28,716 nucleotides of DNA. It comes from Streptomyces sp. NRRL F-5122 (lineage in GTDB: Bacteria; Actinomycetota; Actinomycetes; Streptomycetales; Streptomycetaceae). This document shows, in pieces, positions 9,282-26,116 of this stretch. The stretch spans positions 1 through 28,716 of the forward strand of contig NZ_LMWH01000304.1 in the NCBI RefSeq assembly GCF_001507435.1, written 5' to 3'. The notes beneath the pieces were generated by a model, which saw nothing but the letters and a program-made list of their open reading frames with translations, was not told the DNA's origin and made no database searches. Both the position numbers and the translations under genes were made by a program. The first letter of the stretch is position 1; each line of letters opens with the position of its first letter.

Positions 9282-9311
9282 GTTCTGGGTGACAGGCCTC
9301 AGGCCCATAGG

Positions 9312-9480: not shown

Positions 9481-9539
9481 GGTCTGCCGAGCAGGGCCGT
9501 TCGCGGCGCCAGGCCAGAGCGGTCTGCGCCGCCAGATCC

Positions 9540-9704: not shown

Positions 9705-9710
9705 CCCACA

Positions 9711-9755
9711 CCTGCGTTCGTGCCGCCCCGCTCGATGAGGCGGCACGAACGCAGG
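9711..9755. terminator. Strong GC hairpin terminator
   Basis: Perfect 17-bp arms, CCTGCGTTCGTGCCGCC (9711-9727) and its complement (9739-9755), flank an 11-base loop. It sits 7 bp after the stop at 9704. There is no U tract, as is usual in Streptomyces. Confidence 0.85.
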
Positions 9756-9819
9756 CAGGAATCCGCCCAGCCCATCGGCCGGGCGACCCCACCGCCCGGC
9801 CAGCTCTCGAAAGGCCACC

Positions 9820-10151
9820 ATGACCGACCAACAACAGGCACCGCCCTCCGCCGACGACGACCGCCGCGACCGCCCTCTAACCCTTGCCGTGCTGCGCCAG
9901 CTGGTCCGCAACGACTGGAGCAAGCTGCCCGGCGACACGCTCGTCGTGCTCTCAGCCGACACGGAAGGCACCGCTACTCGCCCTTCTCCACCTACGAAAA
10001 CTCGCGATACGCGCCGCTCTCCCCCGCTGACCAGGTCGGCGAGACCTACCCGCTACCCGAGGAACTGAAGCAGGACAAGGAGCTGCGGGAGCTGTACCCG
10101 CAGATCCCGGACACCGCCGTTCCGGCCCTGGTGCTGTACCCCCTCGGCTGA
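9820..10151 (+). pseudogene. Conserved hypothetical protein with a single-base frameshift
   Basis: ATG 9820, behind GAAAGG, encodes MTDQQQAPPSADDD...LTLAVLRQLVRNDWSKLPGDTLVVLSADTEG. The sense then moves to the next frame: RYSPFSTYENSRYAPLSPADQVGETYPLPEELKQDKELRELYPQIPDTAVPALVLYPLG, ending at 10151. One extra A at about 9987 (GGCACCGC read as GGCAACCGC) restores a 110-residue protein with the familiar Streptomyces pattern of LP-x-D-x-LVVLS-D-EGN-x-x-SP...GE-x-Y...AVPALVLYP. These small cytoplasmic proteins have no known function. A 12-bp-arm hairpin follows. It may be intact in the real genome if the missing base is a sequencing error. Confidence 0.65.
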
Positions 10152-10161
10152 GCCGACCCGT

Positions 10162-10195
10162 GCGGGGCGGGACAAGCGGAAGCGTCCCGCCCCGC
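10162..10195. terminator. GC hairpin terminator
   Basis: Arms GCGGGGCGGGAC (10162-10173) and GTCCCGCCCCGC (10184-10195) are perfect complements with a 10-base loop. The hairpin begins 10 bp after the stop at 10151. Confidence 0.8.
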
Positions 10196-10251
10196 GGCCA
10201 CCAACTCCCGAGCCGGTTTCTGGCTCGGCCTGACGAAAGCGAACCGTCGCC

Positions 10252-10683
10252 ATGTCCGACTCAGCTCACGCACCACAGGAGAGATCCCCGGCGCCCGTGC
10301 TGGTCATCAGCGACAGCGCCCACGACGACCCCATCGGCCTGGAGCCCTGCCCGGTCCCCCTACGGCACTTGCCGTCGCCGCTGTTCAACGCCGAGGAGTA
10401 CCAGCGGGCTCCGCTCGTCCTCCTGGACGACCGCAGCTACACCGGCTTCACGCTGCGCCACATGCCCCACCGCCTGGGCCTAATCATCGTGGGCGCCGAT
10501 CCCGACGACAACACGGTGTACCACCGGGCCGTGAACCTCGGCGCTGAAGGAATCCTTCGGGCCGAACAGGACCTGAGCTGGCTGCACCTTCGACTGCACT
10601 CCGCGACCGACTGCCGCTACGCCCACTGGGATGCGCTCCTGACCGGCGGCCCCGCGGACCCTCCCCCGCCCGCGACCAGTTGA
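10252..10683 (+). CDS. Stand-alone CpaE-like receiver-type protein
   Basis: The 143-residue protein has a receiver-like (Rossmann-type) outline: VLVISDSA (strand 1), RAPLVLLDDRSY (strand 3 with acidic residues), LGLIIVGADPDDNTVYHRAVNLGAEGILRAEQDLSWLHLRL (strands 4 and 5 with the A-LGAE motif). This matches the N-terminal pseudo-receiver of CpaE/Ssd-type septum-site and pilus-secretion proteins in actinobacteria, which normally precedes a ParA-type ATPase. No ATPase domain or Walker motif follows here, so the domain stands alone. Free-standing copies may act as localisation or decoy partners; the role is unknown. It starts the plus-strand run up to 12191 with short gaps. Confidence 0.65.
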   Translation: MSDSAHAPQERSPAPVLVISDSAHDDPIGLEPCPVPLRHLPSPLFNAEEYQRAPLVLLDDRSYTGFTLRHMPHRLGLIIVGADPDDNTVYHRAVNLGAEGILRAEQDLSWLHLRLHSATDCRYAHWDALLTGGPADPPPPATS

Positions 10684-10737
10684 CGCGCCACGGCACCGAC
10701 CGCATGGCCGGACCCCCGTCACCAGAAGGAGTCACCA

Positions 10738-11352
10738 ATGCACCCGATACCTCACCGCTGTGCCCGCCGGCCTTTGGCGGGCGGGCTCGTCGTGCCCTGG
10801 GTGTCCCTGATCCACGACGGCCACGCCGCCTTCGGCAGCCTCGACGCCGACCGGGCCCGCACCGCCTTCCTACACCGCCTGTGCCAGATACGCGGCCAGC
10901 CGCTCAACGAGCGGTGCTTCCTGATCGTCCGCCCGGCCGACGTAGCCCAGGGCTGCTCCCCGGAACCGGCCTTGCACCCCGAGTGCCTGCCGTATGCCGC
11001 CGCGCACTGCCCGATGCTCAACGGCACGGCCACGCACTACCGGCACCGCCCCGTCCTGGCCACCCACCCCGCCGGGCGACCCTGCACCGATCCGTCCTGC
11101 CCCTGCCCGGCCCGCACACCCGACGACGGCCACACCGCGCGCAGCGGAAGCCCGGCCGACCGATACGAGGCCTGGATGATCCACACCCGCAGCTACCGCC
11201 TGACCGGTGCGTCCGGCCAGGCCGACGTTCCCGCAGGCATCAGCCTCGACGTACCGATCCTGCGCAGACGCGTCCTGCGTACCGCCCACCTCTCGGCCGA
11301 CCAGGAGCGCCTGATGGGCCTGGTGCGCAGCCTCCTGGACGGACACCTGTGA
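10738..11352 (+). CDS. Conserved Streptomyces hypothetical protein, Cys/His-rich
   Basis: The 204-residue product follows AAGGAG (AGAAGGAGTCACCAATG). Landmarks are LVVPWVSLIHDGHAAFGSLDADR, LHRLCQIRGQPLNERCFLIVRP, CSPEPALHPECLPYAAAHCPMLNGTATHYR, ATHPAGRPCTDPSCPCPARTPD and GISLDVPILRRRVLRT. The family is widespread on Streptomyces plasmids and arms and is sometimes wrongly labelled as cell-envelope protein OmpA. The many Cys/His pairs (C-x8-C, H-x2-C, H-C, C-x4-C-x-C) suggest structural zinc sites. There is no signal peptide or membrane span, so it is cytoplasmic. The function is unknown. Its stop overlaps a GTG of the next frame by GTGA. Confidence 0.85.
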   Translation: MHPIPHRCARRPLAGGLVVPWVSLIHDGHAAFGSLDADRARTAFLHRLCQIRGQPLNERCFLIVRPADVAQGCSPEPALHPECLPYAAAHCPMLNGTATHYRHRPVLATHPAGRPCTDPSCPCPARTPDDGHTARSGSPADRYEAWMIHTRSYRLTGASGQADVPAGISLDVPILRRRVLRTAHLSADQERLMGLVRSLLDGHL

Positions 11353-11393
11353 CCTCCACCCGCAACGTCGTCCCTTGGTTGAAGGAGCCTTCT

Positions 11394-12191
11394 GTGATCA
11401 CGCCCGATCCCACGACGCCCGAGGGCGAAGCCATCATCAAGCTCCACGAGCAGATGGCCGAGCTCCGCGAACGCACTGACGAGTGGCCCGGCGCCGACAC
11501 CGTCGACATCCTCGACAAGTGGCTCGCCCTCTTCGACTTCACCAGCCCGGTGAAGCGGACGCGGCTTGTCGCCGGCAGCGTCTGGGTGCTGCGTCGCGAG
11601 GACCGCCACGAGGACGACGTGACGATCTGGAGCGACGAGGACTCCGCGCTGGCGGCACTGGCCGAGCACGTCCGCAGCAGCTGGGACAACGTGCAAGGAA
11701 ACGACGGCATCCCGGACCTCCCTCCCCTGGAGGACCGCTTGGCCGTCGACCTCTACTACGGGCCGCGGTCCGAACGGTCCGACGAGGACTACTGGCTGTA
11801 CGGCACCGACGTCGGCCGGTGCGTGCGCACGGCGCCCGCGTCGCACGACTTCCGTTTCCCGGACGAGAAGGTCAGCGCCCAGATCAACAGCGCGGCCCTC
11901 TTCCACGCGCCAGCCGGCCCCGACGGTGAGGGGCTGCCGTGCATCGAGATCGCGGGGGTCCTCGTCTTCGCCTACCTGGACGCCGGCATGCAGGCGGTGC
12001 GGGTCTCGGTTCACCTCGACACCGCCGATGAGCTGGTCATCCAGCCGGGTCAGACGGTGCCGCTGCACGTGCAGGTCGAGGACTCCACGGTATTCAGTGC
12101 AGGCGCCGTCCTGACCCGGCCGACGGGTGGCGGGAGGCGTCAGTGGCTGCGGGGGCTGAGCCACCGAATGCCGTGGCGCAGGGGGGATTGA
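11394..12191 (+). CDS. Hypothetical protein, acidic
   Basis: The 265-residue protein begins at GTG 11394 behind GAAGGAG (11381-11387). GTG 11349, which overlaps the previous stop, would add 15 residues and cannot be excluded. Landmarks are IKLHEQMAELRERTDEWPGADTVDILDKWLALFDF, VWVLRREDRHEDDVTIWSDEDSALAALAEHVR, DEDYWLYGTDVGRCV and a C-terminal beta-rich half (VSVHLDTADELVIQPGQTVPLHVQVEDSTVF) ending in a basic tail. It is acidic overall, has no membrane span, and I recognise no family. Operon-like spacing with the two preceding genes suggests co-expression. The ssb promoter overlaps its last codons. Confidence 0.7.
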   Translation: MITPDPTTPEGEAIIKLHEQMAELRERTDEWPGADTVDILDKWLALFDFTSPVKRTRLVAGSVWVLRREDRHEDDVTIWSDEDSALAALAEHVRSSWDNVQGNDGIPDLPPLEDRLAVDLYYGPRSERSDEDYWLYGTDVGRCVRTAPASHDFRFPDEKVSAQINSAALFHAPAGPDGEGLPCIEIAGVLVFAYLDAGMQAVRVSVHLDTADELVIQPGQTVPLHVQVEDSTVFSAGAVLTRPTGGGRRQWLRGLSHRMPWRRGD

Positions 12192-12215
12192 CCCACCACT
12201 GAAATACACTAGTAT
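12188..12215 (+). promoter_or_regulatory. Sigma-70-like promoter of ssb
   Basis: TTGACC (12188-12193) and TAGTAT (12210-12215) are separated by 16 bp in a locally AT-rich patch, about 20 bp before the ssb ATG and overlapping the stop of the preceding gene. An inverted repeat AAATAC-ACTA-GTATTT covers the -10 box and could be a regulator site. Confidence 0.65.
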
Positions 12216-12235
12216 TTGAGCTAGAAGGTGTTCGC

Positions 12236-12763
12236 ATGGCCCCGCTCATCCCGCACGTGTTGTCCGGCACCGTCAGCAGCGACGTCGAATGCCGCTTCAC
12301 CGAAACCGGTCTCGCCGTCTGCCGGTTCCGCGTCACCGCGACGCCGAGCCAATGGGACGCCGCCGCACAGACATGGCGGGACGGAACCCCGGTCCCCTAT
12401 GTCTGCACGGCCTGGCGGGACCTCGCCCGCAACGCCACCGAGTCCCTCACCCCCGGGGTCACCGTCCTGATCACGGGACGCATCACCGAGATCAGGGACA
12501 ACTCCATCTACCTCAGCGTCGACGACCTCGGCGTCAGCCTGCGCCAGCGCATCGCCTACACCGAAACCAGCCTGCCCAGCCCAGCCGCCGCCGCTCCCGT
12601 CGCCCCACCCCCGACCCCTCAGCCCGCAGCACCGAGCGCACCCCGGGCCGCCACCAGGCAGCCGGGCAACCCGCCCGCCTGGTGGGACAAGCAACGGTCC
12701 TCCGGCTGGTCCGAGACCGACACCTCCGCCGCCGACGGCACTCCCCTTCACGTCGTCCGCTGA
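12236..12763 (+). CDS. ssb: Single-stranded DNA-binding protein
   Basis: The 175-residue protein carries an N-terminal OB fold typical of bacterial SSB: VLSGTVSSDVECRFTETGLAVCRFRVTATPSQWD, VPYVCTAWRDLARNATESLTPGVTVLITGRI, IYLSVDDLGVSLR (about residues 8-105). A Pro/Ala-rich linker and a tail follow. The tail ends LHVVR and lacks the acidic DDDIPF-type tip by which housekeeping SSBs recruit partners, so this is probably a plasmid-type SSB protecting single strands in transfer or replication. GAAGG lies 9 bp before ATG 12236. It is followed by a terminator and a dprA fragment, a grouping common in DNA-uptake or transfer gene sets. Confidence 0.88.
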   Translation: MAPLIPHVLSGTVSSDVECRFTETGLAVCRFRVTATPSQWDAAAQTWRDGTPVPYVCTAWRDLARNATESLTPGVTVLITGRITEIRDNSIYLSVDDLGVSLRQRIAYTETSLPSPAAAAPVAPPPTPQPAAPSAPRAATRQPGNPPAWWDKQRSSGWSETDTSAADGTPLHVVR

Positions 12764-12797
12764 GACTCTCCCCCTTCTTCCCCTTCACCGCCCACCT

Positions 12798-12831
12798 GGC
12801 GCGGCACCGGTTCGCCTGCCGGTGCCGCGCC
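12798..12831. terminator. GC hairpin terminator after ssb
   Basis: Perfect 13-bp arms, GGCGCGGCACCGG (12798-12810) and its complement (12819-12831), flank an 8-base loop, 34 bp after the ssb stop. Confidence 0.8.
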
Positions 12832-12848
12832 CTGCCCGAAAGGCCGCC

Positions 12849-13200
12849 ATGCCCACAAGCACGCTGTCCGAGCGGGCCGCCCGCGCCGCGCTGGCCGCCC
12901 ACTTCACGCCGGATCAGGTCGCCGCCGACCTCGCCCGCTACTCCCCCGCCGACGTCTGGCAGCTGCGCGAGCGCCTCGACGGCAGCGGGCGACTGGCCCA
13001 GTACAGGCCGCGCGCCGAGCTCGACACCGCACAGCTGACCTGCCGGTTCATCATCCCGTCGGACGAGGTCTGGCCCACAGCCCTGGCCGACCTCGGACCG
13101 GACTGCCCACTGGGGCTCTGGGTCCGCGGAAGCGACCAACTGCCCCAGCTGACCGGCCGCGCCGTGGCCGTGACCGGCAACCGCAACCCCACCAAGGGGG
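12849..13200 (+). pseudogene. dprA: Truncated DNA-processing protein DprA
   Basis: ATG 12849, behind GAAAGG, encodes SERAARAALAAHFTPDQVAADLARYSPADVWQLRERL. The DprA-specific segment FIIPSDEVWPTALADLGPDCPLGLWVRGSDQLPQLTGRAVAVTGNRNPT follows, equivalent to the start of the Rossmann fold with its GSR-x-x-T motif. The homology ends abruptly at about residue 115. The remaining frame, to 13517, is Arg/Gly-rich shadow of the next gene. DprA normally has 280-380 residues and binds single-stranded DNA and loads RecA; nearly the whole functional fold is missing here. The break at about 13195-13200 looks like a deletion junction with the following recombinase-like gene. Confidence 0.75.
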
Positions 13201-13311
13201 CCGGGCCGTTGGCGCCGAGGAACAGCCGGCGGCGGGCCCGGCACGGCCGGTGCCGCGCAGCCGTCGGGGTGCCGGGCCGCGCTCGCTCCCGCCAAGCTGA
13301 GGGGCCGGCCT

Positions 13312-15655
13312 GTGACGGTGGGGCGCGGGAAGGGGCTGGCACGGAGCTGCCCGGTGTGCCTGGGATGGCTGGTGGTGCACTGGTACAGGGTGTGCGACGG
13401 GTGCCGGCCCTGGGCGAGGAAGTACCCCGAGCGCGGGGTGTGCCCGCGGTGCCGACACGAGGCACACCTCAACACGGACGGGCTGTGCAAGCCGTGCCTC
13501 ATGGCGATCCGAGTTGAGGAAGACGCCGAGTGGGCTTTGGGCCTGGAGGAGGCGCGGCCTCGGCCTGTCCAGCTCACCGTCGGCGGCATGTATGGCGACC
13601 GGTCGGCGTCGGCCCGGCCGCTGCGCCGCCCCACCAAGAACGGACTGAGTATCGGGGTCGAGTGGTGGACCAAGCTCCGGCGGCAGCGCGCCGCTCCCGC
13701 CGGGCCGCCGGTGCTGGAGCCGCAGGTACGCGGTCAGGTCCCTCTCTTCACCGTGCCCCGGGCACTGAGCGACGCTACGGTCAGCGCGATCGTCGGTCGG
13801 CCGGTCGCCGGGTGGGAGGAGGCCCGGCAGGTGATCGAGGCGATGGCGGCCGAGCACGGATTGACCGCGGGCTGGCGCAGCAAGGTCGCCGAGATGGTCC
13901 GCCTCGCCCTGGCCGTGCGTGAGGCCGAAGGCGCCGAGCGGCTGCCCGAGGCCATGCTGCGGGACCTGCCGACCAACGGGGACGCGGTCCGCCTGATCTT
14001 GCTGCGGGTCGGGCTATTGGACGAGGCTCCCGAGCCCATGCGGTTCTCCATCTCGGACCAGCCCGCCCGTACTCCGTACATCACCGCTCCGGCTCCGCTG
14101 CCGCCCCGGGCGCCCCGCCAGTGCGCCGACTGCTACGCCTGGATCCCCGCCGGTCGACGGGCAGGTTTCGTCTGCGATCCGTGTCGGCACTGGCGGGAGC
14201 GGACGGGGCGAGGCCGGTGCTGCCGCTGCGGCCGTGACGGACTGGCCCTGCGCAACGACCGTTGCCGCAGCTGCCACCCCTACCGCCTCATCGACCAAGC
14301 CCGCCCGGCCTCCCGGCGGTTCACGCAGCTGGTGATCTCACTGCCGACCGGCAAGGGCGGACCGTTCGAGGCGTTCCCGGTCGGCGACGGCCAGGCGCCC
14401 GACTACGACGAACGACGGCCAGCTCTGCACACGAGCCGCGGACAGGAAGCGCTGTTCACCAGCCGCCGCGACTGGGCCCCGGTGCTGGCCCGGCTGCGGA
14501 GTATGCCTTCGGGCGATCCGCCGCTGACCGAGACCGCCCAGTGCCTTCTTGAGGAGTTCACCCGCCATCGACCGGGGCAGCGGACGGACTACCGGAAGAA
14601 CACCCGCACGCTCACGATCCTCCTGTACTGGCTCGGCACCGAAACGGCCGTCTTCGAACGCGACGTGCACGACCTAGCCAGGATCGACGTGAACCTCGCG
14701 GCCAAGCCCGTCTGCCAGTTCCTGCGCACCCGAGGCCTGTTGGTGGAGGACCCGAACCTGCATCGGGACGCGTACCTGGCGTGGATCGAGTTGACCCTCA
14801 CCGCCCTGCCGGAGCCGGTCGCGAGCGAGGTGGGCACCTGGGTCAAGGTCATGCGCGAGCAGGGCCGCCACGAAGGCGAGCCCCGCGGCTACGACGGCAT
14901 CCGCCGCTACCTCACCACGCTTCAGCCCACCCTCACAGCCTGGACCACGACGGCTGGCGTGAACTCACTGAGGGAGATCACGAAGGACCACGTCGAGAAC
15001 GCCGTGGATGGCCTGTCCGGCTACGCCCGTCGAGGACTGGCCACAGCCCTGCGCAGCCTGTTCCGCGCGCTGAAGCGCGAGCGAGTGGTCTTCCGCAACC
15101 CCGCCCGCACCTGCCGGTCGGCGACCTCAACGGCATCCCGAGGTCCATCCCTTCCGACCTCCTGATGGGGCTGCTCGACCAGGCGGCGACGCCGCTCGGT
15201 CGCCTCGTCGTCGCCTTCGCTGCCATCCACGCACTGCCCGGAATCGAGATCCGAAAGCTGCACACCACGGGCCTCGATCTCTCCCGCGGCACCCTCGAAG
15301 TACGGCGCGGCCTGCTGCGGCACACCCTCTACCTCGAGGAGCTCACCCACCAACTCGCCGCCGACTGGACTACCTACCGCCACCAGCGATGGCCCGCCTC
15401 GGCCAACCCCCACCTGCTGGTCAGCCAGAAGACCGCGGTCGACCCCGACCACCCGGCCGTCAGCATCGGCCTTCTAAGCGGAGCCCTTCCCCGCGGGCTG
15501 ACGCTGAGCGGTCTGCGACAAGACCGCATCCTGAACGAGGCGTCCGAAAGCGCCGACCGCTCAAACTGATGCGCCTGTTCGGCATCACCGAGCAGACCGC
15601 CATGCGCTATGTCACCGCGGCGCACCCCGAACGCACCACCAAGATGCCTCGGTAA
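13312..15655 (+). pseudogene. Zinc-ribbon / tyrosine-recombinase-like protein, broken by two frameshifts
   Basis: GTG 13312 follows GAGGGG at good spacing. The N terminus has two CxxC pairs (CPVC...CDGC, CPRC...CKPC), and a second cluster lies around residues 270-325 (CADC, CDPC, CCRCG, CRSC). The C-terminal half resembles the core-binding and catalytic regions of tyrosine recombinases (FTRHRPGQRTDYRKNTRTL...; GYARRGLATALRSLFRALKRERVVFRNPAR). The first frame ends in shadow at 15165. Sense continues in a second frame from about 15115 (HLPVGDLNGIPRSIPSD...LRQDRILNEA), then in a third from about 15556 (PLKLMRLFGITEQTAMRYVTAAHPERTTKMPR), stopping at 15655. Each shift is repaired by one C. Repaired length would be about 780 residues. 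The canonical R-HxxR-Y residues are not all evident, so activity is doubtful even if intact. Confidence 0.65.
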
Positions 15656-15661
15656 GCCGCG

Positions 15662-15748
15662 CTAGGGTCTTTCGTTTGGATCATCGTGTGACGCTGCGAT
15701 ATGGAGTCCGGCCAGGTAGATCGCGCCAGGCCATTTTCCCGTGTTCAC
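15662..15748 (-). pseudogene. Transposase 3' remnant
   Basis: The minus strand reads GKWPGAIYLAGLHIAASHDDPNERP then TAG (15662-15664). This resembles the C-terminal end of an insertion-sequence transposase, where HDDPNERP lies right at the IS end. A GTG at 15748 would formally start a 28-residue frame, but a degraded IS end is more likely. It abuts the stop of the membrane-protein gene at 15764. Confidence 0.4.
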
Positions 15749-15763
15749 GGCTGCTCCCTCGTG

Positions 15764-16711
15764 TCAGGGGAAGCTTGGCGGTGGGTCTTTGCGGAGAAGC
15801 GCGTTGATCTGATTGCCGACGTCGACAGTCAAGGGCCCTGGGCAGTGCAGGCGTAGTTGTTCGGCGAGGGTGTGGCCGTGGAGGTCCGCAGCGGTCTCGA
15901 TGAGCTGGCAAAGGGCGGCAGTGGCCGTGCGGGCTCGGATCGTGCCGGTGGTGACCACGGCGATGCTGATGAGCAGAGCGGGCCACCAGCAGATGCCGAG
16001 TAAGCCGTAGAGGGTGGCCCATCCCATGAGGCTGCCGGCGGCTGTGTAGGCGGTTTGGGCAGTGGTGAGGTCGGCGCGCAGGGATTCGGGGAGCACGGTC
16101 CATAAGCGGGGCCACGCAAGGGCGATGTCCAGTCCGTAGGCACGGCGGATGCGGATCGCGTTGTCCCGCCATCGGTCGCCAATCCACGTAGGGAGCTCGG
16201 GGAATTCAAGGCTGATGGCGTCTCGGCGAGCCAGCGCTTCGGCGATGCCAGGCCCCGCGACCACTATGGGCAATGCGGTGGTGACGCCGGTGGCTGGGGG
16301 GAATGAAGAGTGTGCGCTGCTGCGGAGGGCCTCGCCTATCAGCGTGTTGACCTGGTTGTCGGCGGAGCGCCATCGGTTTTGCCGCCAGATGGTGAGCCGG
16401 CGGGCGGGTGGCCACCGGCCGCGGGTGGTCCAGAGGCGGCGTACCAGCATGCCCAGCGCGGTCGCTACCAATCCGGCGGCGGCACTGGCTAGCAGGAGGC
16501 CCGCGAGGAGGACCACGATCACCACCGCGGGGTGACTGTCGTCTGCCCACGGGGTGATCCTGTCGGCCAGGACGTGCGGGCTCAAGGCGTGACTCCACCC
16601 GAGTTGGGTGGCGAGGAGAGCGGTGGACACCCACAGCAGGCCGGGGAGGACCAGGACGGTGACCCAGCGTTCGGCTATCTTCTTGCCGAGTTCGCCAAGA
16701 AACGTGTTCAT
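15764..16711 (-). CDS. Multi-pass membrane protein of the CHAT-protease locus
   Basis: The 315-residue protein begins MNTFLGELGKKIAERWVTVLVLPGLLWV. Hydrophobic spans lie near residues 17-36, 61-88, 221-241 and 242-258, with a soluble loop of about 130 residues between spans 2 and 3 and a cytoplasm-like C-terminal tail. No enzyme motif is seen. The start overlaps the stop of the upstream 127-residue gene by ATGA, so both are made from one message, divergent from the CHAT protease gene. In such a setting a membrane protein is a candidate effector (channel or pore) or anchor that the protease acts on; this is inference. Related proteins with an N-terminal FLGELGKK-AERW signature occur in Streptomyces. 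Confidence 0.75.
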   Translation of the reverse strand: MNTFLGELGKKIAERWVTVLVLPGLLWVSTALLATQLGWSHALSPHVLADRITPWADDSHPAVVIVVLLAGLLLASAAAGLVATALGMLVRRLWTTRGRWPPARRLTIWRQNRWRSADNQVNTLIGEALRSSAHSSFPPATGVTTALPIVVAGPGIAEALARRDAISLEFPELPTWIGDRWRDNAIRIRRAYGLDIALAWPRLWTVLPESLRADLTTAQTAYTAAGSLMGWATLYGLLGICWWPALLISIAVVTTGTIRARTATAALCQLIETAADLHGHTLAEQLRLHCPGPLTVDVGNQINALLRKDPPPSFP

Positions 16712-17091
16712 CCGCTGATCACCGTGACGGGTGTCAGCGGGTCCTGCGTCAGTGGACACACCGGGGTTGCGGTGCTGCCCGGTTCGAAGCGGCCACACGG
16801 GCGCGGGTGAGGGCATCGCCACACATGGGCGGTGCGCACGCCTGCGGTCACGTCCGGCAGCGGCTGAAATTGGCGGTCCGTGCTGGTGATCCCGTCCACT
16901 CCGACGGCGGCGGCGGCCTCCTCCACCGCGTCGAGCAGTTCTGTCAGCAGGGCAGGATCGCCGCCGTCGCGGACCGCGCCGACAAGCGACTCCCACTGCG
17001 TGCGGGTGAAGCCGGCGCCGTGCAGCACCGCCTGCAAGCCCGGGTCGCCGGCCATGCTCAGACATAGTTGTTCAACGCGTTCTGACACCAT
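16708..17091 (-). CDS. Small protein with helical N-terminal domain and Cys-cluster tail, CHAT locus
   Basis: The 127-residue protein starts at ATG 17091, six bases after a near-perfect GGGAGGA site. Residues 1-65 form an all-helical domain (RVEQLCLSMAGDPGLQAVLHGAGFTRTQWESLVGAVR...LLTELLDAVEEAAAAVG) that could be a death-domain-like or effector-associated adaptor. The tail has VWRCPHPRPCGRF and PVCPLTQDPLTPV, a short C93/C99/C112 (plus H95) cluster like a mini zinc knuckle. It overlaps the membrane-protein gene by 4 bp, and its start lies about 200 bp from the divergent CHAT gene. I propose an adaptor or regulator linking protease and membrane protein; no family was recognised with certainty. 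Confidence 0.7.
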   Translation of the reverse strand: MVSERVEQLCLSMAGDPGLQAVLHGAGFTRTQWESLVGAVRDGGDPALLTELLDAVEEAAAAVGVDGITSTDRQFQPLPDVTAGVRTAHVWRCPHPRPCGRFEPGSTATPVCPLTQDPLTPVTVISG

Positions 17092-17288
17092 GATTCCTCC
17101 CCTGCCGCGCGGACGGCTGTCTATCATGCCCGTGGGCGTGGATGCCTCGCCACGAGACGCTGCCGCAGGCGCCGCGGGGTTGGAAGGCGGGCGCTGAGTC
17201 ACCGTCATTTCTTCCTGCGGCCAGCGTGAGTCTCGGGTGAAATCTCGCTACAGAGACACCGGCGCTGGCGACTGTATGGGAGGGGCTC
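17092..17288. promoter_or_regulatory. Divergent promoter region of the CHAT locus
   Basis: This 197-bp interval separates two divergent starts and must hold promoters for both. Good ribosome-binding sites are seen at both ends (GGGAGGA for the minus gene, GGGAGGGG for the plus gene). No convincing -35/-10 pair or long inverted repeat was found by eye. Confidence 0.5.
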
Positions 17289-20200
17289 ATGGCCAGGGAC
17301 AACGACCAAAGAACCCCATGGTTGGCGGCATTGGTCAGGAAGTATGACAGGGCGGATGCCATGGGCTCGGTGAGTCGCTGCGAGAGCACCGGGGACGTCG
17401 TCGGTCTCCAGCATGCCGCTGCGCGCTTACGCCACATAGCTGCCAGTACCCCCTCATCAGATGCCGCTGACAGAGCCGCAGCGCTCAATGACTTGGGTAT
17501 CGCTCTGCAGGTCCTTTTCGAGCAGTGCGGGGACCAGGCGGCACTGGTAGAGGCGGTGCAGGCTGGCCGGGACGCGGTCGGCGCCACCCCACCTGACCAC
17601 CCGAACTGGACCCTCTACATGAACAACTTGGGTGCTGCACTGGGGTACTTGTACCAATGGGGCGGTGACCCGGTCGTGCTCGAAGAACAAGTGCAGGTCC
17701 TCCGGGAGGCCGTCGGCATCACCCAGGTGAGCCACCCCCACCGCGTCATGGTCTTGAATAACCTCACCATCGCGCTACGGAGGGTGTTCGAGCGGGAGGA
17801 CGATCAGGCTGCGTTGGAGGAGGCGGTGCAGGCCAGCCGGGAGGCTGTTGGAGGCGCATCGGCCGACGACCCCAATCGAGCAGCGTGCCTGAACTCTCTT
17901 GGCACCACTCTGCTGAAACTATTCGAGCGGGGCGGCGACCAGTCCGTGTTGGAGGAGGCCGTCCAGGCCGGTCGCGATGCGGTGCGTATCCCGTCCAACC
18001 AGGCCAGCCGTGCCATCTTCCTGAACAACCTCGGTTACGCCCTACGAACCCTCTTCGAGTGCGCTGGGGACCAGGCCGCGCTGGTAGAGGCGGTGCAGGC
18101 CGGCCGGGAGGCCGTCGACGGCACCGCGCCCGATCACCCCAATCGAGCTATGTACCTGCACAATCTCGGCGTCGCCCTGCTGAGATCTTTCGAGCGAGGC
18201 GGTGATCAGGCGGTGCTGGAGGAGGCCATCCAAGCCAGCCGTGACGCGGTGCGCGCCACGCCGGAGCGAGGCGGTGATCAGGCGGTGCTGGAGGAGGCCA
18301 TCCAAGCCAGCCGTGACGCGGTGCGCGCCACGCCGCCCGACCACCCCGACTTCGCCATGTACCTGAACGCCCTTGGCATCTGCCTGCAGACTCTGTTCGA
18401 GTGGGACGGTGATCAGGCCGTGCTGGCAGAATCAGTGCAAGTGGGCCGTGACGCGGTACGCGCCACCCCGCCCGACCACCCCCGCCGAGCCATGCATCTC
18501 AACACCCTCGCCATCAGTCTGCAGAGCCTGTACGCGCGGGGTGGCGATCTGGCACTGGGAGAAGAGGCCGTGCAGGTCGCCCGCGATGCGGTGCGCGCTG
18601 TCCCGTCCGACCGTCCTGACCGGGCCATGTTCCTGAACAATCTCAGCATCGCTCTGCAGAGCCTTTTCTGGCGGGCCGGCGATCCAGCAGTGGGCAAGGA
18701 GGCCGTGCAGGTCGCCCGGGAAGCAGTCAAAGCCACCTCATCCGATCACCCCGACCTGGCCTCTCGCCTGAGCAGCCTCGGCAACGCGCTGCGAAAGCTC
18801 GGTGATTGGGACGGCAATCAGGCCGTGCTGAAGGAGGCGGTACAGGTCGGCCGTGACGCGCTCCACGCCACCCCGCCCTACGCCCCCTACCGAGCCCTAT
18901 ACCTGAACAACCTCGGCATCAGCCTGCAGTGCCTGTACGAGCGGGGTGGGGACCCAGCAGCGTTAGAAGAGGGACGAAGCTGTTGCGCCAGTGCTGCCAG
19001 CATCGTGTCGGCACCGGTGGCTACGCGGGTATCCGCATCACGGCTCGCCGCTCGCTTGGACCTCCTCGCGGGCGAGCACGACCACGCCCTGGAAATGGCA
19101 GAGTTGGCCGTGGAGCTACTGCCTCAGCTGGCTCCTCACGCTCTCGCCCGAGCTGACCGAGAAAACCGGATCGTCAACATGTCCGGATTGGCCTCGGCAG
19201 CGGCGACAGCGGCCATCGCCGCAGGCCGTCCGGAACAAGCCGTGGAACTGCTCGAGCAGACGCGGGGCGTATTGCTCGCTGACACGCTCGACGCCCGCAG
19301 TGACCTGACCGACCTATGGGACCGAGAACCCCGCCTCGCCGCCGCGTTCGAGGACATCCGAAAGGCGATCGAGGCCGCCGACCATGCCCCCGACAGCGTC
19401 GGCGTCTCCAACGCCCAGGCTCTGGGCCGCCCTGGTGGGGCAGGCGGAGTGGACCACCGAGATCTGGCCGCCCGGCGGGCCGATCTGCAGCGACGTTGGA
19501 CCGATCTGCTGGGGCGCATCCGCGAACGGCCCGGATTCGACGGGTTTCTGCGGCCGCCCCCGATCGACCAACTCCGCCAGCAGGCCGCTGACAATCCCAT
19601 TGTGTATGTCACCGTCCACGATGAGCGCGGCGCAGCGTTGATCGTCGTCGACGACCCCAGCCGGCCGGTACGCGTCATCGACCTGCCTAACCTGACCGAG
19701 TCCGCCGCAGCTGCGCACATCGACCTCCTCAGTACCGCCCAACACACCGCCTTGGACGGGACACGTCCCGCACGCGAACGGAGCGCTGCCCAGCGGCAGA
19801 TCCTCGGCGTTCTGGCCTGGCTGTGGGACACTGTCACCGAACCTGTTCTGCAGCATCTCGGCCACACCACCACCCCGCCCGACGACGGCCCGTGGCCCCG
19901 ATTGTGGTGGTGCCCCGTGGGAATGTGCACCTTCCTGCCCCTGCACGCCGCCGGACACCACATGCCCGCCAGTCGCGCCGACACCGTGATGGACCGGGTG
20001 ATCTCCTCCTACACCCCCACCATCCGCGCCCTCGCTCACGCCCGCGCCTCTCGCCTTCGGGAACGACTCGCCGGCGCCTCCGCATCGACCATGCTGATCG
20101 TGGCTGTGCCTGACGCCCCCCAAAGCAGACCACTGCACAGTGTGCCCGAGGAAGTCGAACTCCTCCGCAGGATGGTCCCCGGAGCGACCATGCTGCCGCC

Positions 20201-20693
20201 CCAGGGAACGCAGGCCACCCGTGACAACGTCGTATCAGCCCTACCGAGCCACCAGATCGCACACTTCGCCTGCCACGGCGTCGCCGACTGGGCCGCTCCC
20301 GCCAATAGCCGACTCCTCCTGCACGACCACCTCGACAACCCTCTCACCCTCGCCAGGATCGCCCGGCTTCGCCTCACCCACGTGGACCTGGCTTATCTGT
20401 CCGCGTGCAGCACGACCGACACCGATCCCGACCATGTCGATGAGGCCACCCATATCACCGCCGCATTCCTCCTTGCTGGATACCCCAGCGTCATTGGAAC
20501 CCTCTGGCCCATCAACGACCGCGCAGCGACCGCCATCACGCACGACATGTACGCCTACCTCACACGCTGCGGCGCCACGCCACCGGACCCCGCCCTCGCC
20601 GCCCAGGCTCTCCACCACAGCACACGAAAACACCGAGACCGCTACCCCGCAGTCCCCACGCGCTGGGCCGCCCATATCCACACGGGCACCTGA
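17289..20693 (+). CDS. TPR-CHAT protein, caspase-like cysteine protease
   Basis: The 1134-residue protein begins with about 60 residues of unique sequence. About eleven tetratricopeptide-like units of about 45 residues follow (pattern NNLG-AL-LFERGGDQA-LEEAVQA-REAV-ATPPDHPNRA-YL), to about residue 560. Then come a helical connector with further TPR-like stretches (to about 700) and a C-terminal CHAT domain. The caspase-type dyad is present: H996 in AHFACHGVADW and C1040 in LAYLSACSTTDTD, followed by ATHITAAFLLAGYPSVIGTLWPINDRAA. CHAT proteases are relatives of separase and caspases; TPR-CHAT forms such as Csx29 cleave partner proteins on activation in anti-phage systems. TTA codons at residues 47 and 559 suggest bldA dependence. 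A 72-bp duplication adds a half repeat near residue 325. It is divergent from the adaptor/membrane pair. Confidence 0.88.
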   Translation: MARDNDQRTPWLAALVRKYDRADAMGSVSRCESTGDVVGLQHAAARLRHIAASTPSSDAADRAAALNDLGIALQVLFEQCGDQAALVEAVQAGRDAVGATPPDHPNWTLYMNNLGAALGYLYQWGGDPVVLEEQVQVLREAVGITQVSHPHRVMVLNNLTIALRRVFEREDDQAALEEAVQASREAVGGASADDPNRAACLNSLGTTLLKLFERGGDQSVLEEAVQAGRDAVRIPSNQASRAIFLNNLGYALRTLFECAGDQAALVEAVQAGREAVDGTAPDHPNRAMYLHNLGVALLRSFERGGDQAVLEEAIQASRDAVRATPERGGDQAVLEEAIQASRDAVRATPPDHPDFAMYLNALGICLQTLFEWDGDQAVLAESVQVGRDAVRATPPDHPRRAMHLNTLAISLQSLYARGGDLALGEEAVQVARDAVRAVPSDRPDRAMFLNNLSIALQSLFWRAGDPAVGKEAVQVAREAVKATSSDHPDLASRLSSLGNALRKLGDWDGNQAVLKEAVQVGRDALHATPPYAPYRALYLNNLGISLQCLYERGGDPAALEEGRSCCASAASIVSAPVATRVSASRLAARLDLLAGEHDHALEMAELAVELLPQLAPHALARADRENRIVNMSGLASAAATAAIAAGRPEQAVELLEQTRGVLLADTLDARSDLTDLWDREPRLAAAFEDIRKAIEAADHAPDSVGVSNAQALGRPGGAGGVDHRDLAARRADLQRRWTDLLGRIRERPGFDGFLRPPPIDQLRQQAADNPIVYVTVHDERGAALIVVDDPSRPVRVIDLPNLTESAAAAHIDLLSTAQHTALDGTRPARERSAAQRQILGVLAWLWDTVTEPVLQHLGHTTTPPDDGPWPRLWWCPVGMCTFLPLHAAGHHMPASRADTVMDRVISSYTPTIRALAHARASRLRERLAGASASTMLIVAVPDAPQSRPLHSVPEEVELLRRMVPGATMLPPQGTQATRDNVVSALPSHQIAHFACHGVADWAAPANSRLLLHDHLDNPLTLARIARLRLTHVDLAYLSACSTTDTDPDHVDEATHITAAFLLAGYPSVIGTLWPINDRAATAITHDMYAYLTRCGATPPDPALAAQALHHSTRKHRDRYPAVPTRWAAHIHTGT
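18192..18335. repeat. Perfect 72-bp tandem duplication in the TPR region
   Basis: Bases 18192-18263 and 18264-18335 are identical. Each encodes 24 residues starting ERGGDQAVLEEAIQ, so the reading frame survives but one TPR unit contains an extra half repeat. The lack of any difference points to a recent duplication or an assembly artefact. Confidence 0.95.
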
Positions 20694-20938
20694 CAGTCGA
20701 GCCGTCCCGTTTCCAGGGGCGGTTTGGTGACGCCGACCTACTCGCAACCGCCGGGGACAGACCGCCGGTGCCGGGATGGCTGGGGGCAGTGGCGGCTGGC
20801 TGAGCGCACGGCCGTCAGCCGGCCGTGGCAACGTCCACCGAGGGGCGTTGTAGGCGGCGCGGGCGGCCTACCTCAGCCATGTGGTCGACGGCCCACTGCC
20901 GCAGCGCCCTGACGGGCTCGCGCAGAATCTGACCGAGG
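20694..20938. other. No recognisable gene
   Basis: Between the CHAT gene stop and the IS5-like remnant I see only shadow frames. The sequence is GC-rich but without protein-like composition. Confidence 0.5.
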
Positions 20939-22358: not shown

Positions 22359-22661
22359 TGACACCCGCGCGCTTCCGACCGGACGGCTCAGAAGATCCGT
22401 CGCCGCGAGCAGGGCCACGAGTACGCCACTACACAGCTGGTAGCGCTCGGAGCTCCGCGGCCGCGGCCCGGCTGCGACCCCGCCGTGTGGTTGCGCGACG
22501 CCCTGGTCGCGGTCGGAGCCCGCAACATCCGGCACCGCGGCGCGCACCGCTTCGTGTTCCGGCTCGGTCGAACCCGCAAGGAGCGGGAGGAGATCAAACT
22601 CGGACTCACCGCCCTGCGGCCCTACCCCAAGCAGCCCGACCCCGAACCGGCGCCGGCGTGA
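22359..22661 (+). pseudogene. 5'-truncated hypothetical gene
   Basis: The frame reads SDRTAQKIRRREQGHEYATTQLVALGAPRPRPGCDPAVWLRDALVAVGARNIRHRGAHRFVFRLGRTRKEREEIKLGLTALRPYPKQP and stops at TGA 22659-22661. It is protein-like with good codon bias, but the frame is closed upstream by a TGA just before 22359, and no ATG/GTG precedes the protein-like part. This looks like the C-terminal end of a longer gene cut at its left side. I recognise the style from Streptomyces mobile elements but cannot name the family. Confidence 0.5.
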
Positions 22662-23539: not shown

Positions 23540-23675
23540 AACAATCTGGACCCGCTTGATCAACATCTGTTGCCTGAACTCGGCATCAACCGTTCCCGCG
23601 TTACACCGACGAAGCCACTGCGCCGCTCCGCACTGATCCCGCCATCCCTGATCTTTCCTGAAAGGCATACTTCTG

Positions 23676-24020
23676 ATGATGACGACGAACACCCAGAGGA
23701 TTCTCGACCTCGCCGCGGCCGCACCGGCCAGCGACGGCGCGGACTTGTTGCTGCTCCTTCGCGAAGCGAACGAGTTGTATCAGGAGGGCTTCGAGGGGCT
23801 GCGTGACATGGTGGCGGCCCGCTTCTCGGGGCTGTCCATCGGGGAGCTCGTGGCGGCCGTGAACGCGGCCGGCATGCCCTGCGACGCGTCGCAGGACCGT
23901 GATGAGTTGCTCCTGCTGCTCGCTCTGACCGAGTGGGAGATGACCCCGGCGGCGATGGCCTATTCAGAGATGGCAGTGGACGCCGCCCGTCGAGGGGTCA
24001 GCCTCCTCCCGGAGGAGTAA
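23676..24020 (+). CDS. Small helical hypothetical protein
   Basis: The 114-residue protein starts at ATG 23676 or 23679, with AAAGG 10 bp upstream. The sequence is all-helical and acidic: TQRILDLAAAAPASDGADLLLLLREANELYQEGFEGLRDMVAARFSGLSIGELVAAVNAAGMPCDASQDRDELLLLLALTEWEMTP. There is no signal peptide or membrane segment; the leucine runs lie in amphipathic helices. I do not recognise a family. It is followed after about 110 bp by the triple-HTH protein and may belong to the same plasmid-type gene set. Confidence 0.65.
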   Translation: MMTTNTQRILDLAAAAPASDGADLLLLLREANELYQEGFEGLRDMVAARFSGLSIGELVAAVNAAGMPCDASQDRDELLLLLALTEWEMTPAAMAYSEMAVDAARRGVSLLPEE

Positions 24021-24067
24021 CGCCGGAATCGGGCCGGGATGGCTCGGAGGCTGGACAGCCCTCCAAA

Positions 24068-24085
24068 ACATACGCCATTATATGT
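24068..24085. promoter_or_regulatory. AT-rich promoter/operator with inverted repeat
   Basis: ACATA (24068-24072) and TATGT (24081-24085) form an inverted repeat in an island of low GC (ACATACGCCATTATATGT), about 50 bp before the triple-HTH gene. The AT content is unusual here and suggests a -10 region under a dimeric regulator, possibly the gene's own product. Confidence 0.4.
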
Positions 24086-24133
24086 GTTGTGAGCCGGGCA
24101 GGCCGGCTCCGCGACGATGGGACGGTTCCGGTC

Positions 24134-24826
24134 ATGGCTGCCCGATCCACGCCTCACCTCGTCGAGGCTGCAGAGATCGCCGCGGAACGCGGGCTGACGC
24201 CGGCGCGCATCAGCGCGCTGTACCTCGAGCGGGAGACCAGCGGTTTCCCCGAGGTCGTCGGCCACCGCGGCCGCGCCCGTCAATGGGACAAGAGCGACGT
24301 CGACGCGTGGTTCGACCAGCGCAAGCCGCCCCGTCTGCACGAGCACAAGCCGCCGAAACTCGATCCCGACGAGCTGCTCACCGGGGCCCAGGCCTCGCGG
24401 TTCCTCGGCTACAAGAACCCTCAGCAGGTCAACACGTATGTGCGGGACCACCCCGGCTACTTTCCGGATCCCGACGTCGTCGAGGAACTGGGCACCCCGG
24501 AGCGGCCCTACCGCCGGCCGAAGTGGTACGTGCGGACGCTCCTGGAGTGGAAAGACTCCCGCCCGGGCAGCGGGAAGCGCAGCATCGAACGCGCAGCGCC
24601 CGCCCTGCCGGACGTGCCCGTCGACGGTGACCCGGATGAGCTGCTGGGTGCATCGCAGGCGGCGGCTCTGCTGGGATTCAAGAGCGTGAACTCCTTCAGC
24701 AGCAGTCTGGGTCAGGGCAACCTGCCCCTGCTGAAGACCGTCGACGCCACGTCCGAGAAGGGCGGCCGCCGCCGGTGGACCCGCCGGCGCATCCTCGAGC
24801 AAGCCGCACAGCGCACAGCCAGGTAG
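24134..24826 (+). CDS. DNA-binding protein with three tandem HTH units
   Basis: From ATG 24134 the protein has 230 residues. Three successive excisionase/AlpA-like winged-helix units are visible: VEAAEIAAERGLTPARISALY...RQWDKSDVDAWF (about 6-60), DPDELLTGAQASRFLGYKNPQQVNTYV...KWYVRTLLEWK (about 77-145) and DPDELLGASQAAALLGFKSVNSF...RRRWTRRRILEQA (about 165-225). Each ends in the basic W-containing wing. Multi-HTH proteins of this kind sit near replication and transfer genes of Streptomyces plasmids and could bind iterated sites. A GTG at 24089 would add 15 residues. The neighbouring repeat array at 25079-25177 is a plausible target; that link is inference. Confidence 0.75.
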   Translation: MAARSTPHLVEAAEIAAERGLTPARISALYLERETSGFPEVVGHRGRARQWDKSDVDAWFDQRKPPRLHEHKPPKLDPDELLTGAQASRFLGYKNPQQVNTYVRDHPGYFPDPDVVEELGTPERPYRRPKWYVRTLLEWKDSRPGSGKRSIERAAPALPDVPVDGDPDELLGASQAAALLGFKSVNSFSSSLGQGNLPLLKTVDATSEKGGRRRWTRRRILEQAAQRTAR

Positions 24827-25078
24827 CACAACCGGCGGGTGGCCCTCGGCTCACCGCCCCTATAGACGCGGCATCCGGTTATGGGTAGTTGGTCCCTTGC
24901 GGACCGGATGTCGCACGATGGCCGGCATGGCGTGGCTCGCCACCACGCCCCGCAGCAGCTTCGGCTGCTGCGGACCGGCCATCGCCGAACTTCCGCTGCT
25001 GCTACCGCCCTCCCCCTGCGCCGGCCGCTACCCTGCCGAGTCTGGTCGGCAGGCCCGCAACGCCTCAGTCCTGCGCGT
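24827..25078. other. Intergenic region without a clear gene
   Basis: Only overlapping shadow frames are seen; none has a good start or protein-like composition. It leads into the repeat array before the replication-relaxation gene. Confidence 0.5.
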
Positions 25079-25177
25079 GGTCGGGGTCATGGTCGGGGGT
25101 CGTGAAGTCCGACCACGAGAGCGTTTCGCGTTCGTGACCATGGTCGGGGGTAGATGGTCGGAGGTTGGGTCGGGGGT
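25079..25177. repeat. Five GGTCGGGGGT-type direct repeats (iteron-like)
   Basis: Copies lie at 25079-25087 (GGTCGGGGT), 25091-25100, 25142-25151, 25156-25165 (GGTCGGAGGT) and 25168-25177. Start spacings are 12, 51, 14 and 12 bp. The palindrome GACCATGGTC (25136-25145) sits in the middle. The array ends 18 bp before the replication-relaxation start, as expected for iterons or an operator. Confidence 0.65.
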
Positions 25178-25195
25178 CACAGGTTTCCTCAAAGA

Positions 25196-26116
25196 ATGAC
25201 CAAGACCAGCCCCACGCCAAGAGTCCTGCCCAGCAGTGTGAGCCCCGTGCCGGCCGAATCGCTGCGTCACCAGGTCCTGGCCGCGCTCGCCCAGCACCGC
25301 ATCGTCACCACCAACCAGTTGCGCCGCATGCTGCGACCGGACGGCACACGGCAGCTGCTGTCCAGAGTTCTGCAGAAGCTGCGCTCCACCGGCTTGGTCG
25401 ACTTCACGGTCCTACCGGATGATGGCCGGTCACGTACCTACGCCTGGTACCTCACACCCGAAGGCGCGCGTCTGACCGGAGACCTGCCCGTTCTGCGCGG
25501 CCGGCCGCCCTACCCCATCACGTCGACCACAGCAGCGTCGCTGAAGACCCCGCACACGCTCGCCGCCGTCCGCGCCCACCTCGCCTTCGCCGAAGACGCC
25601 CGACGGCTCGGACACGAGCACGGCCCCTGGGACTGGACCCCCGAGGTATCCCACTCGATCGGCGAGGGCGAGCGGGTCGTCGCCGATGCCCTCATGTACT
25701 ACACGGTCGCCGAGCACCAACAGCGGCGAAAATTGCGTGCGTTCGTAGAAATCGATCGCAGCACCATGAGCGCGGAGCGGCTGGCCGTGAAGCTGATCGA
25801 GTACGCGCGCCTGTTCCAGTACGAGGCCCAGCCCGTCGGCCGCCGCAAGCCGACCGCCACCGGTCCTGCCTGGCTGCGCTGGTACCCGGTCTTTCCGCGC
25901 GTGCTCTTCGTGCTGACCGGCGCCTCCCGCACCAGGCTGGAGAACCGCATGAGCGACCTGCAGGCCATGGTGGCCCACCACCCGCTCGTAGCGGCCTTCG
26001 CCGGCGAAGTGCGCCTCGGAGCCGCCGTACTCGAAGACCTCGAGCAACACGGACCCGCCCACCCCGTGTGGGTTCCCCTGACCGGCGGGAACCCACGCCC
26101 TTGGACGGAATTGTGA
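25196..26116 (+). CDS. Replication-relaxation family protein
   Basis: From ATG 25196 the protein has 306 residues. The N-terminal winged helix reads VLAALAQHRIVTTNQLRRMLRPDG...LLSRVLQKLRSTGLVDFTVLPDDGRSRTYAWYLTPEGARL (about 18-95). The remainder fits the Replic_Relax family: PHTLAAVRAHLAFAEDARRLGHEHGPWDWTPEVSH, ERVVADALMYYTV, LRAFVEIDRSTMSAERLAVKLIEYARLFQYE and WYPVFPRVLFVLTGA. The family is linked to plasmid replication and relaxation in actinomycetes and has a restriction-endonuclease-like acidic core (E-x-D after a D). It could act on the repeats directly upstream. It is convergent with the minus-strand operon, with hairpins between. Confidence 0.85.
   Translation: MTKTSPTPRVLPSSVSPVPAESLRHQVLAALAQHRIVTTNQLRRMLRPDGTRQLLSRVLQKLRSTGLVDFTVLPDDGRSRTYAWYLTPEGARLTGDLPVLRGRPPYPITSTTAASLKTPHTLAAVRAHLAFAEDARRLGHEHGPWDWTPEVSHSIGEGERVVADALMYYTVAEHQQRRKLRAFVEIDRSTMSAERLAVKLIEYARLFQYEAQPVGRRKPTATGPAWLRWYPVFPRVLFVLTGASRTRLENRMSDLQAMVAHHPLVAAFAGEVRLGAAVLEDLEQHGPAHPVWVPLTGGNPRPWTEL

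Follow-up and report, generated by a model that had tools for sequence, protein, structure and literature searches.

Whether the TPR-CHAT protease gene of this Streptomyces contig forms one system with its two neighbours, and what such a system may do, is the question raised by the locus. The window (the whole stretch of DNA analysed, 28,716 nucleotides) contains the three open reading frames on which the first-pass annotation had based a three-gene locus: gene P0003 for the TPR-CHAT protease (17289..20693, + strand, 1134 aa), supported by its ORF and a Pfam match; gene P0001 for a small Cys-cluster protein (16708..17091, - strand, 127 aa), supported by its ORF, an alignment and an AlphaFold model; and gene P0002 for a polytopic membrane protein (15764..16711, - strand, 315 aa), supported by its ORF, an alignment and a model. 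The overlap claimed for the small and membrane genes, both on the - strand, is real and amounts to 4 bases according to the ORF coordinates. The CHAT gene and the small gene are separated by a divergent intergenic control region (17092..17288, assigned to neither strand), with which a single 8-nt inverted repeat was noted; the promoter search gave no match to a sigma-70-type promoter in 15600-20900. In comparison with the closest relative, L039, dN/dS, calculated as the ratio of computed dN and dS, is 0.29 for the small gene, 0.31 for the membrane gene and 0.35 for the CHAT gene.

The N-terminal part of P0003 is represented by a TPR array with a repeat of ~45 aa, occupying approximately residues 60-570 (17466..18998, + strand; Pfam matches to TPR_10 with 88.1 bits and TPR_12 with 46 bits, limits judged by eye), within which there is an exact 72-bp tandem duplication (18192..18335, + strand) corresponding to 24 aa, about half a repeat. 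Residues 841-1133 (19809..20687, + strand) match the CHAT protease domain PF12770 in Pfam with 151.2 bits, compared to the curated cut-off of 24. The dyad claimed to be intact was found at exactly the residues named, His996 (codon 20274..20276, + strand) and Cys1040 (codon 20406..20408, + strand), both of catalytic type judging by the sequence and the rows of relatives. Both residues are kept in 91 of the 93 CHAT rows of the window and related loci, and the remaining two rows stop short of the dyad site, namely, L102, a short extra frame, and L024, the frame of which leaves the family just upstream of the dyad and ends near the contig end. By its domains and dyad, P0003 is a TPR-CHAT protease, with proteolysis as the predicted activity. 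CHAT genes are present in 73 of 100 relatives sampled; for the majority of CHAT genes, neither a partner nor a function is known to us.

The small protein is modelled by AlphaFold (pLDDT 85) as four helices followed by a strand-rich Cys part, in agreement with the helical-plus-Cys-cluster composition proposed for it. The C-terminal Cys-cluster comprises C93, C99 and C112 (16756..16815, - strand), and the fourth cysteine, C10, is encoded at 17062-17064 of the same strand, as located from the alignment. The three clustered cysteines are kept in 95/95 rows and C10 in 94/95; the sole row lacking it, L021, was excluded beforehand from alignment A3, which comprises 76 of 90 locus sequences, the window protein and four database proteins. 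The best reading of the small protein is a putative zinc-type four-cysteine adaptor. Two roles, adaptor or inhibitor, had been suggested for it, and it is the former that becomes more likely, because the divergent loci L138 and L154 encode CHAT proteins that end in a fused Cys-cluster, beside a related membrane protein.

Hydropathy peaks of the membrane protein are located at residues 17-35, 65-83 and 236-254, and the helices of its all-helix model include residues 2-37, 62-95, 209-241 and 243-285, which makes the four spans claimed for it a fair reading. No confident relative was found for this protein in Pfam or PDB, including a PDB fold search. The family alignment (A4, with 70 of 80 membrane proteins used) contains a conserved core at residues 171-212, just before TM3 (16076..16201, - strand), with the consensus RPTWIGDRW...YGLD...WPRLWTVLP, and a hypervariable linker at residues 136-153 (16253..16306, - strand). 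This linker is a candidate cleavage loop, within which a cleavage site is possible. The conserved core could equally be a sensor or an anchor.

The conservation of the neighbourhood was analysed in 80 genome loci fetched by the membrane protein alone, without reference to CHAT. The CHAT gene was found in 74 of them, the small gene in 76 and all three genes in 73, with CHAT matches under 50 bits left uncounted (such a fragment is present at the edge of L115). Since the neighbourhood recurs in 73/80 loci picked in this manner, it is more than chance, and the possibility that it is not conserved elsewhere, named by the first-pass annotation as grounds for refutation, fails clearly across actinomycete genomes. 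The gene order is divergent in 56 of the 73 complete loci and co-directional in 11 and 6; adjacency is kept in each of the orders seen, i.e., divergent, small-membrane-CHAT and CHAT-small-membrane. In the mirror-tree analysis, the distances of the three proteins correlate with r 0.82-0.84, and 0 of 2000 shuffles were as high; 70 rows from 81 loci were used, eight loci judged fragmentary or multi-copy (L054, L055, L092, L098, L101, L102, L111 and L115) and three CHAT-less loci (L067, L099 and L113) having been dropped. All three CHAT genes found in the genome from which the window originates have both partners, and the trio was found across some twenty actinomycete genera, as well as on plasmids. 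The trio is a conserved unit, the members of which have stayed together despite rearrangement.

No named system with this exact trio had been known to the first-pass annotation, and none was found in the defence-system database and literature covered here. The Borvo defence system, to which BovA presumably belongs, is a single-gene system. PADLOC-DB 2.0.0 contains no confident match for any of the three proteins; the only match was a weak one of BovA to the CHAT part (E 0.0036, 13.9 bits), limited to residues 1037-1082 (46 residues). The full-text literature search, judged by titles and abstract openings and with most subscription papers outside its scope, gave no description of the trio.

That a CHAT protease can cut its partner is known from Craspase (PMC10028731), a type III-E CRISPR system of Cas7-11, TPR-CHAT (Csx29) and the substrate Csx30, with a sigma gene also expected at the locus. 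Similar to Craspase, the locus has a TPR-CHAT with a His/Cys dyad beside partner genes, and among PDB sequences P0003 is matched best by TPR-CHAT 7zoq (E 1.5e-5). However, CHAT is accompanied here by a Cys-cluster protein and a membrane protein, a Pfam scan of 20 ORFs from the window gave no Cas protein, and the NCBIfam Csx29 model matches P0003 (residues 874-1087) with 42.1 bits, far under its cut-off of 300. As for gasdermins, their pore domain is alpha/beta, whereas the model of the present polytopic membrane protein is all-helical; gasdermin is absent from the 10 Pfam families matched at E 0.1 by any of 70 members of the membrane-protein family. The gasdermin parallel drawn earlier is therefore retained as an analogy only, and the CHAT-gasdermin pairing described in the source is fungal, with ~17% of Q2-L proteins carrying CHAT (PMC10989679). 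The likeness to these HET-Q2-like proteins lies in a CHAT protease beside a presumably membrane-active partner, in a cell-death setting. In the two-gene EACC1 system (Kaur et al. 2020, System 4), a membrane sensor is proposed to activate a caspase-type protease (PMC7159879). This system is likewise actinobacterial, and its caspase-superfamily protease, paired with a membrane component, is believed to work close to the membrane. However, EACC1, encoded 5' of the caspase gene, has one TM helix and its protease carries variable C-terminal effectors (PMC7159879), whereas in the present locus the TPRs precede CHAT, the Cys-cluster is encoded by a gene of its own and the membrane protein has several spans.

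The reading preferred here, with roughly an even chance of being correct, is an accessory three-gene TPR-CHAT system of Actinomycetota, in which the protease would control the four-span membrane partner via the zinc-type adaptor, with cleavage, toxicity and phage defence as presumed properties. The fast-changing TPR array would sense an invader or damage signal, and the adaptor would dock the protease onto the membrane protein on its cytoplasmic side. Once active, the protease would cut or gate this partner, the hypervariable loop that precedes the conserved WPRLW core being a possible site, and the altered membrane would stop the growth of the infected cell. The trio thus points to a membrane response under protease control that has no name as yet and is probably directed against invaders.

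A less probable, although serious, alternative is that the membrane protein serves as sensor or anchor and not as the target: it would detect an envelope event (phage DNA entry or envelope stress) and signal via the small protein, and CHAT would cut a transcription regulator or other proteins of the cell. The part of the membrane protein that is conserved most strongly, positively charged and probably cytoplasmic, by TM3, resembles a docking surface and is consistent with this role, as is the proposal of Kaur et al. for EACC1 (PMC7159879). However, it is the fast-changing TPR array that resembles a sensing part, and no further widely shared candidate substrate gene was found near the 80 loci, where no cluster of other neighbours, all unannotated, is common to more than 19, although a distant substrate is conceivable.

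The hosts listed are actinomycetes, many of them filamentous, which fits a proteolysis pathway with a regulatory role in the development or stress response of filamentous actinomycetes, in place of a conflict system. CHAT-domain proteins also occur near group ECF54 sigma factors, and proteolytic control was proposed there (PMC8999054). Nevertheless, such a pathway is improbable: the unannotated neighbour clusters listed include no recognisable sigma factor common to the loci, and, unlike a core developmental gene, the trio is patchy in its presence (24/100 relatives), is carried by plasmids, has varied neighbours, and occurs, like CHAT genes, in several copies per genome.

The window itself is plasmid-like and contains plasmid backbone pieces, a Replic_Relax domain and a region for which matching plasmids have a relaxase annotation; a related plasmid carries other genes at the corresponding place, namely, a DNA methyltransferase and most of a DprA gene. 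The membrane gene is held by 12 plasmid records, and in 6 of the 8 annotated records opened among these, CHAT is located beside two adjacent hypothetical genes. The plasmid features of the window and the 12 records agree with a plasmid- or island-borne system acting between mobile elements, in plasmid competition or maintenance and not in cell defence, an explanation which is considered very improbable, although nothing in particular speaks against it. Carriage of the trio by phages was rejected: no phage record and, according to tblastn after a pattern scan, no viral contig holds the membrane protein.

In the 100 relatives, 26 of 38 membrane-gene places lie within 10 kb of a CHAT place. The first count used 92 CHAT places (the best 91 and a lower one added as near a membrane match), and the count redone with 150 listed places gave 26/38 again. 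For the other 12, of which several are fragments or lie at contig ends, none of the listed CHAT places is as near as 10 kb; conversely, 26 of the 150 CHAT places, among the matches listed, have a membrane gene at this distance. Of 15 loci retrieved because of a weak or fragmentary membrane match, 9 lack CHAT. Divergent membrane relatives, an alignment of four of which matches the membrane family (hhalign 98.4%), also adjoin CHAT, with a Cys-cluster ORF in between in L119, L122, L124 and L128. The adaptors of the divergent loci may be analogous rather than homologous to the small protein, because the fused and in-between Cys-clusters all escape a profile built on its C-terminal part, and hhalign of the small protein against the in-between Cys-cluster of L122 gives E 0.11. 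Homology is not supported by these comparisons, and the clusters were kept only as a motif of like kind in the corresponding position.

CHAT loci lacking this membrane protein were also examined for other TM-type ORFs. Such an ORF is present within 1.5 kb in 12 of 30 close loci and at 3-4.5 kb in another 6; the corresponding numbers for 30 distant loci are 13 and 7. TM segments were called by a crude hydropathy rule applied to stop-to-stop frames, and 4 of the 60 CHAT-first loci were chosen with a weak membrane match already known (G042, G039, G015, at 31 kb, and G004). A membrane partner as a general rule for CHAT proteases is too broad, because 18/30 close relatives have no membrane-type ORF within 1.5 kb; DUF6338 adjoins some close relatives. 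A chance neighbourhood or shared insertion hotspot of non-cooperating genes, which these 18 CHAT genes and the 12 membrane-gene places mentioned above would fit, is hardly credible and is already contradicted by the 73/80 loci in three gene orders, the mirror-tree r >0.8 and the two Cys-cluster-CHAT fusions.

The preferred reading, a protease controlling a membrane partner through an adaptor, can be extended, tentatively and with less confidence, to a widespread actinomycete immune module. In such a module, the zinc adaptor would recruit the TPR-CHAT 'caspase' to a polytopic membrane protein, opened or released by cleavage as a protease-gated membrane effector, similar to a caspase-gasdermin pair but built from unrelated parts; adaptor and protease would sometimes form one fused protein, and some lineages would have replaced the membrane partner, as with DUF6338 beside close CHAT relatives. 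With the trio, one branch of CHAT gains two constant partners and a set of residues of interest, namely, the dyad, the four cysteines, the WPRLW core and the variable loop, and the trio loci are small natural cassettes. Controlled cell death in filamentous bacteria is a long-standing question; if the membrane protein is the target, the trio would provide these bacteria with a caspase-type membrane effector unrelated to gasdermins.

The three genes lie on contig C303 (the window), one of 311 contigs of the 10.16 Mb genome of the strain. The TPR-CHAT protein is encoded by the ORF at positions 17289–20693 of the plus strand; it contains TPR repeats, and a Pfam domain search placed the CHAT domain in residues 841–1133. 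On the minus strand, the ORF of a 127-aa small protein (16708–17091) is followed by that of a 315-aa membrane protein (15764–16711), which overlaps the upstream 127-aa gene by 4 bases. These positions match the three-ORF layout with overlapping minus-strand genes described in the first-pass annotation, and His996 and Cys1040, which it named, are both present at those residues of the CHAT protein. The protease is of a known kind. For the small protein and the membrane protein, searches of Pfam, NCBIfam and PADLOC gave no confident match, nor did the trio match any named defence system in PADLOC with confidence; a full-text literature search, incomplete in coverage, found no paper describing the trio in its title or the start of its abstract.

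The three genes form a conserved unit. The membrane protein was the query (alignment A1) against the genome collection, with no CHAT information used in the search; 205 relatives were matched, and the best 80 were fetched as loci. All 80 locus record titles name actinomycetes, and two records are metagenome-assembled. Among these best 80 of 205 relatives, the CHAT gene was found in 74 loci, the small gene in 76 and the complete trio in 73; a conserved neighbourhood, for which the first-pass annotation had proposed a search, therefore exists. The CHAT gene is upstream and divergent in 56 of the 73 trio loci, downstream and co-directional in 11, and upstream and co-directional in 6. The CHAT gene is accompanied by no recognised small gene in L111 (1/80), the small gene is present without CHAT in L067, L099 and L113 (3/80), and neither was found in L054, L098 and L115 (3/80); a contig end is close by in L067, L098 and L113. 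In a second set of 20 loci, CHAT was found in 16 (missing in L021, L026, L028 and L038) and the small gene in 18 (missing in L033 and L038); the small proteins of L022, L023 and L026 are identical to those of L059, L117 and L067. Both partners are present at all three CHAT places of the strain's own genome. Among the other flanking ORFs of the 80 loci, the two commonest clusters occur in 19 and 11 loci. The distances of the three proteins are correlated over 70 rows (r 0.84, 0.84 and 0.82), with values as high in 0 of 2000 shuffles, shared species history contributing part of r.

Annotated plasmid records agree independently with a conserved unit: in six of the eight examined, from 12 matched, a ‘CHAT domain-containing protein’ adjoins two hypothetical genes, one of ~120–150 aa and one of ~300 aa, the gene order varying among three arrangements. 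In the plasmid record L200, the annotation covers just part of the membrane gene, and the remaining two records (L197, L198) contain no annotated CHAT gene. Of the 38 places of the membrane gene in 100 relatives, 26 are no more than 10 kb from a CHAT place among the 150 listed, and several of the remaining 12 are fragments or at contig ends; seen from the CHAT side, the membrane gene accompanies only 26 of these 150 listed places.

Cysteines C93, C99 and C112 and proline P94 are present in all 95 small-protein sequences, and C10 in 94 of 95. The predicted structure comprises four helices and a strand part bearing cysteines. The top Foldseek match, the zinc-ribbon protein YdjO, has an E-value of 0.47 and is a lead only, so zinc binding through the four cysteines is something we infer.

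A search from the CHAT side revealed a divergent relative of the membrane gene in 6 of 60 further CHAT loci; four of these (L119, L122, L124, L128) had been selected with a weak membrane match already known, which leaves two new finds in 56 loci (L138, L154). Profile comparison shows the membrane proteins of the former four to be homologous to the trio family (hhalign probability 98.4%), and the family profile also recovers those of L138 and L154, at 7e-13 and 6e-10. In the four loci, a Cys-cluster is located at the end of an ORF between the CHAT and membrane genes, while in L138 and L154 the CHAT frame itself terminates in a Cys-cluster (W-x-CP-x3-C ... P-x4-CCP), directly followed by the membrane gene. 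Cys-cluster ORFs also precede more remote membrane members in L181 (without CHAT), L185, L187 and L188, those of L185 and L188 being assigned by eye. Accordingly, a Cys-cluster recurs at the same place beside the membrane gene, likened by position and kind of motif. A profile of the C-terminal part of the small protein did not recover the clusters of the divergent loci it covered, and pairwise profile comparison with the L122 ORF aligned the cysteines at E 0.11; for these reasons, recurrence is claimed and common descent with the small protein is not.

In the membrane-protein family alignment, the stretch RPTWIGDRW ... YGLD ... WPRLWTVLP, directly ahead of the third membrane helix, is strongly kept, and the structural model is confidently all-helical (pLDDT 92, pTM 0.84). 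The middle part is probably cytoplasmic, because K+R exceed D+E (17.8 vs 9.6 on average). Within it, loop 136–153 is hypervariable (majority residue frequency 0.13) and is proposed as a candidate cleavage site. Craspase is described as cleaving Csx30 within a flexible loop (PMC10028731) and its orthologs as cutting at a non-conserved site (PMC11106740), whereas for loop 136–153 the likeness is one of analogy alone. Distant membrane-protein relatives without CHAT occur in L180 (7137–8111), belonging to the window's own genome, and L182 (7167–8189), seemingly near succinate dehydrogenase genes, as judged by eye. The matches in L197 (9623–10429) and L198 (10140–10427) adjoin polyketide synthase-type genes on Streptomyces plasmids, and the single locus L055 (3953–16627) carries a pair of CHAT genes together with three matches to the membrane gene.

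Membrane partnering is one of several modes for CHAT genes, since 18 of 30 close CHAT loci have no membrane-type ORF nearby. Genes of DUF6338-type membrane proteins (Pfam match computed for L134 and L135) adjoin TPR-CHAT genes close in sequence to that of the window in L132 (8847–9635), L134 (11542–12225), L135 (9316–10038) and L136 (9000–10124), where the trio membrane protein is absent; such a protein is possibly an exchanged partner. A different TM protein recurs beside CHAT genes in L178 (4963–5996), L172 (6285–7418), L160 (6244–6966) and L142 (3543–4349), accompanied at three of these loci by a small Cys protein, and looks like part of an analogous pair. In L024 (36–3056), the CHAT frame leaves the family just ahead of the dyad, close to a contig end.

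Parts of the window have matches in Streptomyces plasmids, and the contig itself is likely to be a plasmid or a conjugative element. It contains a region annotated as MobF relaxase in matching plasmids (4015–6268), a gene with an AAA domain (6315–9308), a plasmid-matching region annotated with an HTH regulator (13202–15657), which stops ~100 bases short of the trio, and an ORF with a Replic_Relax domain (25154–26116). The plasmid of Streptomyces sp. JCM17656 has segments 9519–13196, 22376–22649 and 23674–26116 in common with the window, and at the place of the trio and its neighbours contains a DNA cytosine methyltransferase gene and most of a DprA gene (L139, 6335–10141); this may be an exchangeable cargo site. 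The closest relative of the trio, L039, is similar to the window over 15777–20698 only, with a 21-aa gap in the TPR array. An exact 72-bp tandem duplication in this array (18192–18335), adding a half-length repeat, either arose very recently or is an artefact of assembly. Mobility and TPR changes are compatible with an accessory, recombining sensor array and do not in themselves prove defence.

The fixed points for any working scheme are the conserved unit, the kept dyad, the kept cysteines, the Cys-cluster fusion in two related loci and plasmid carriage. The main rival explanation, in which the membrane protein is the sensor, is separated from the proposed scheme by a single point, namely, that another conserved candidate substrate is absent. 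In the proposed scheme, the most likely one, with the membrane protein as the target, the TPR part would do the sensing, the small protein would dock as an adaptor, and the CHAT protease would cut or gate the membrane protein, so that the membrane would be altered and the cell would stop.
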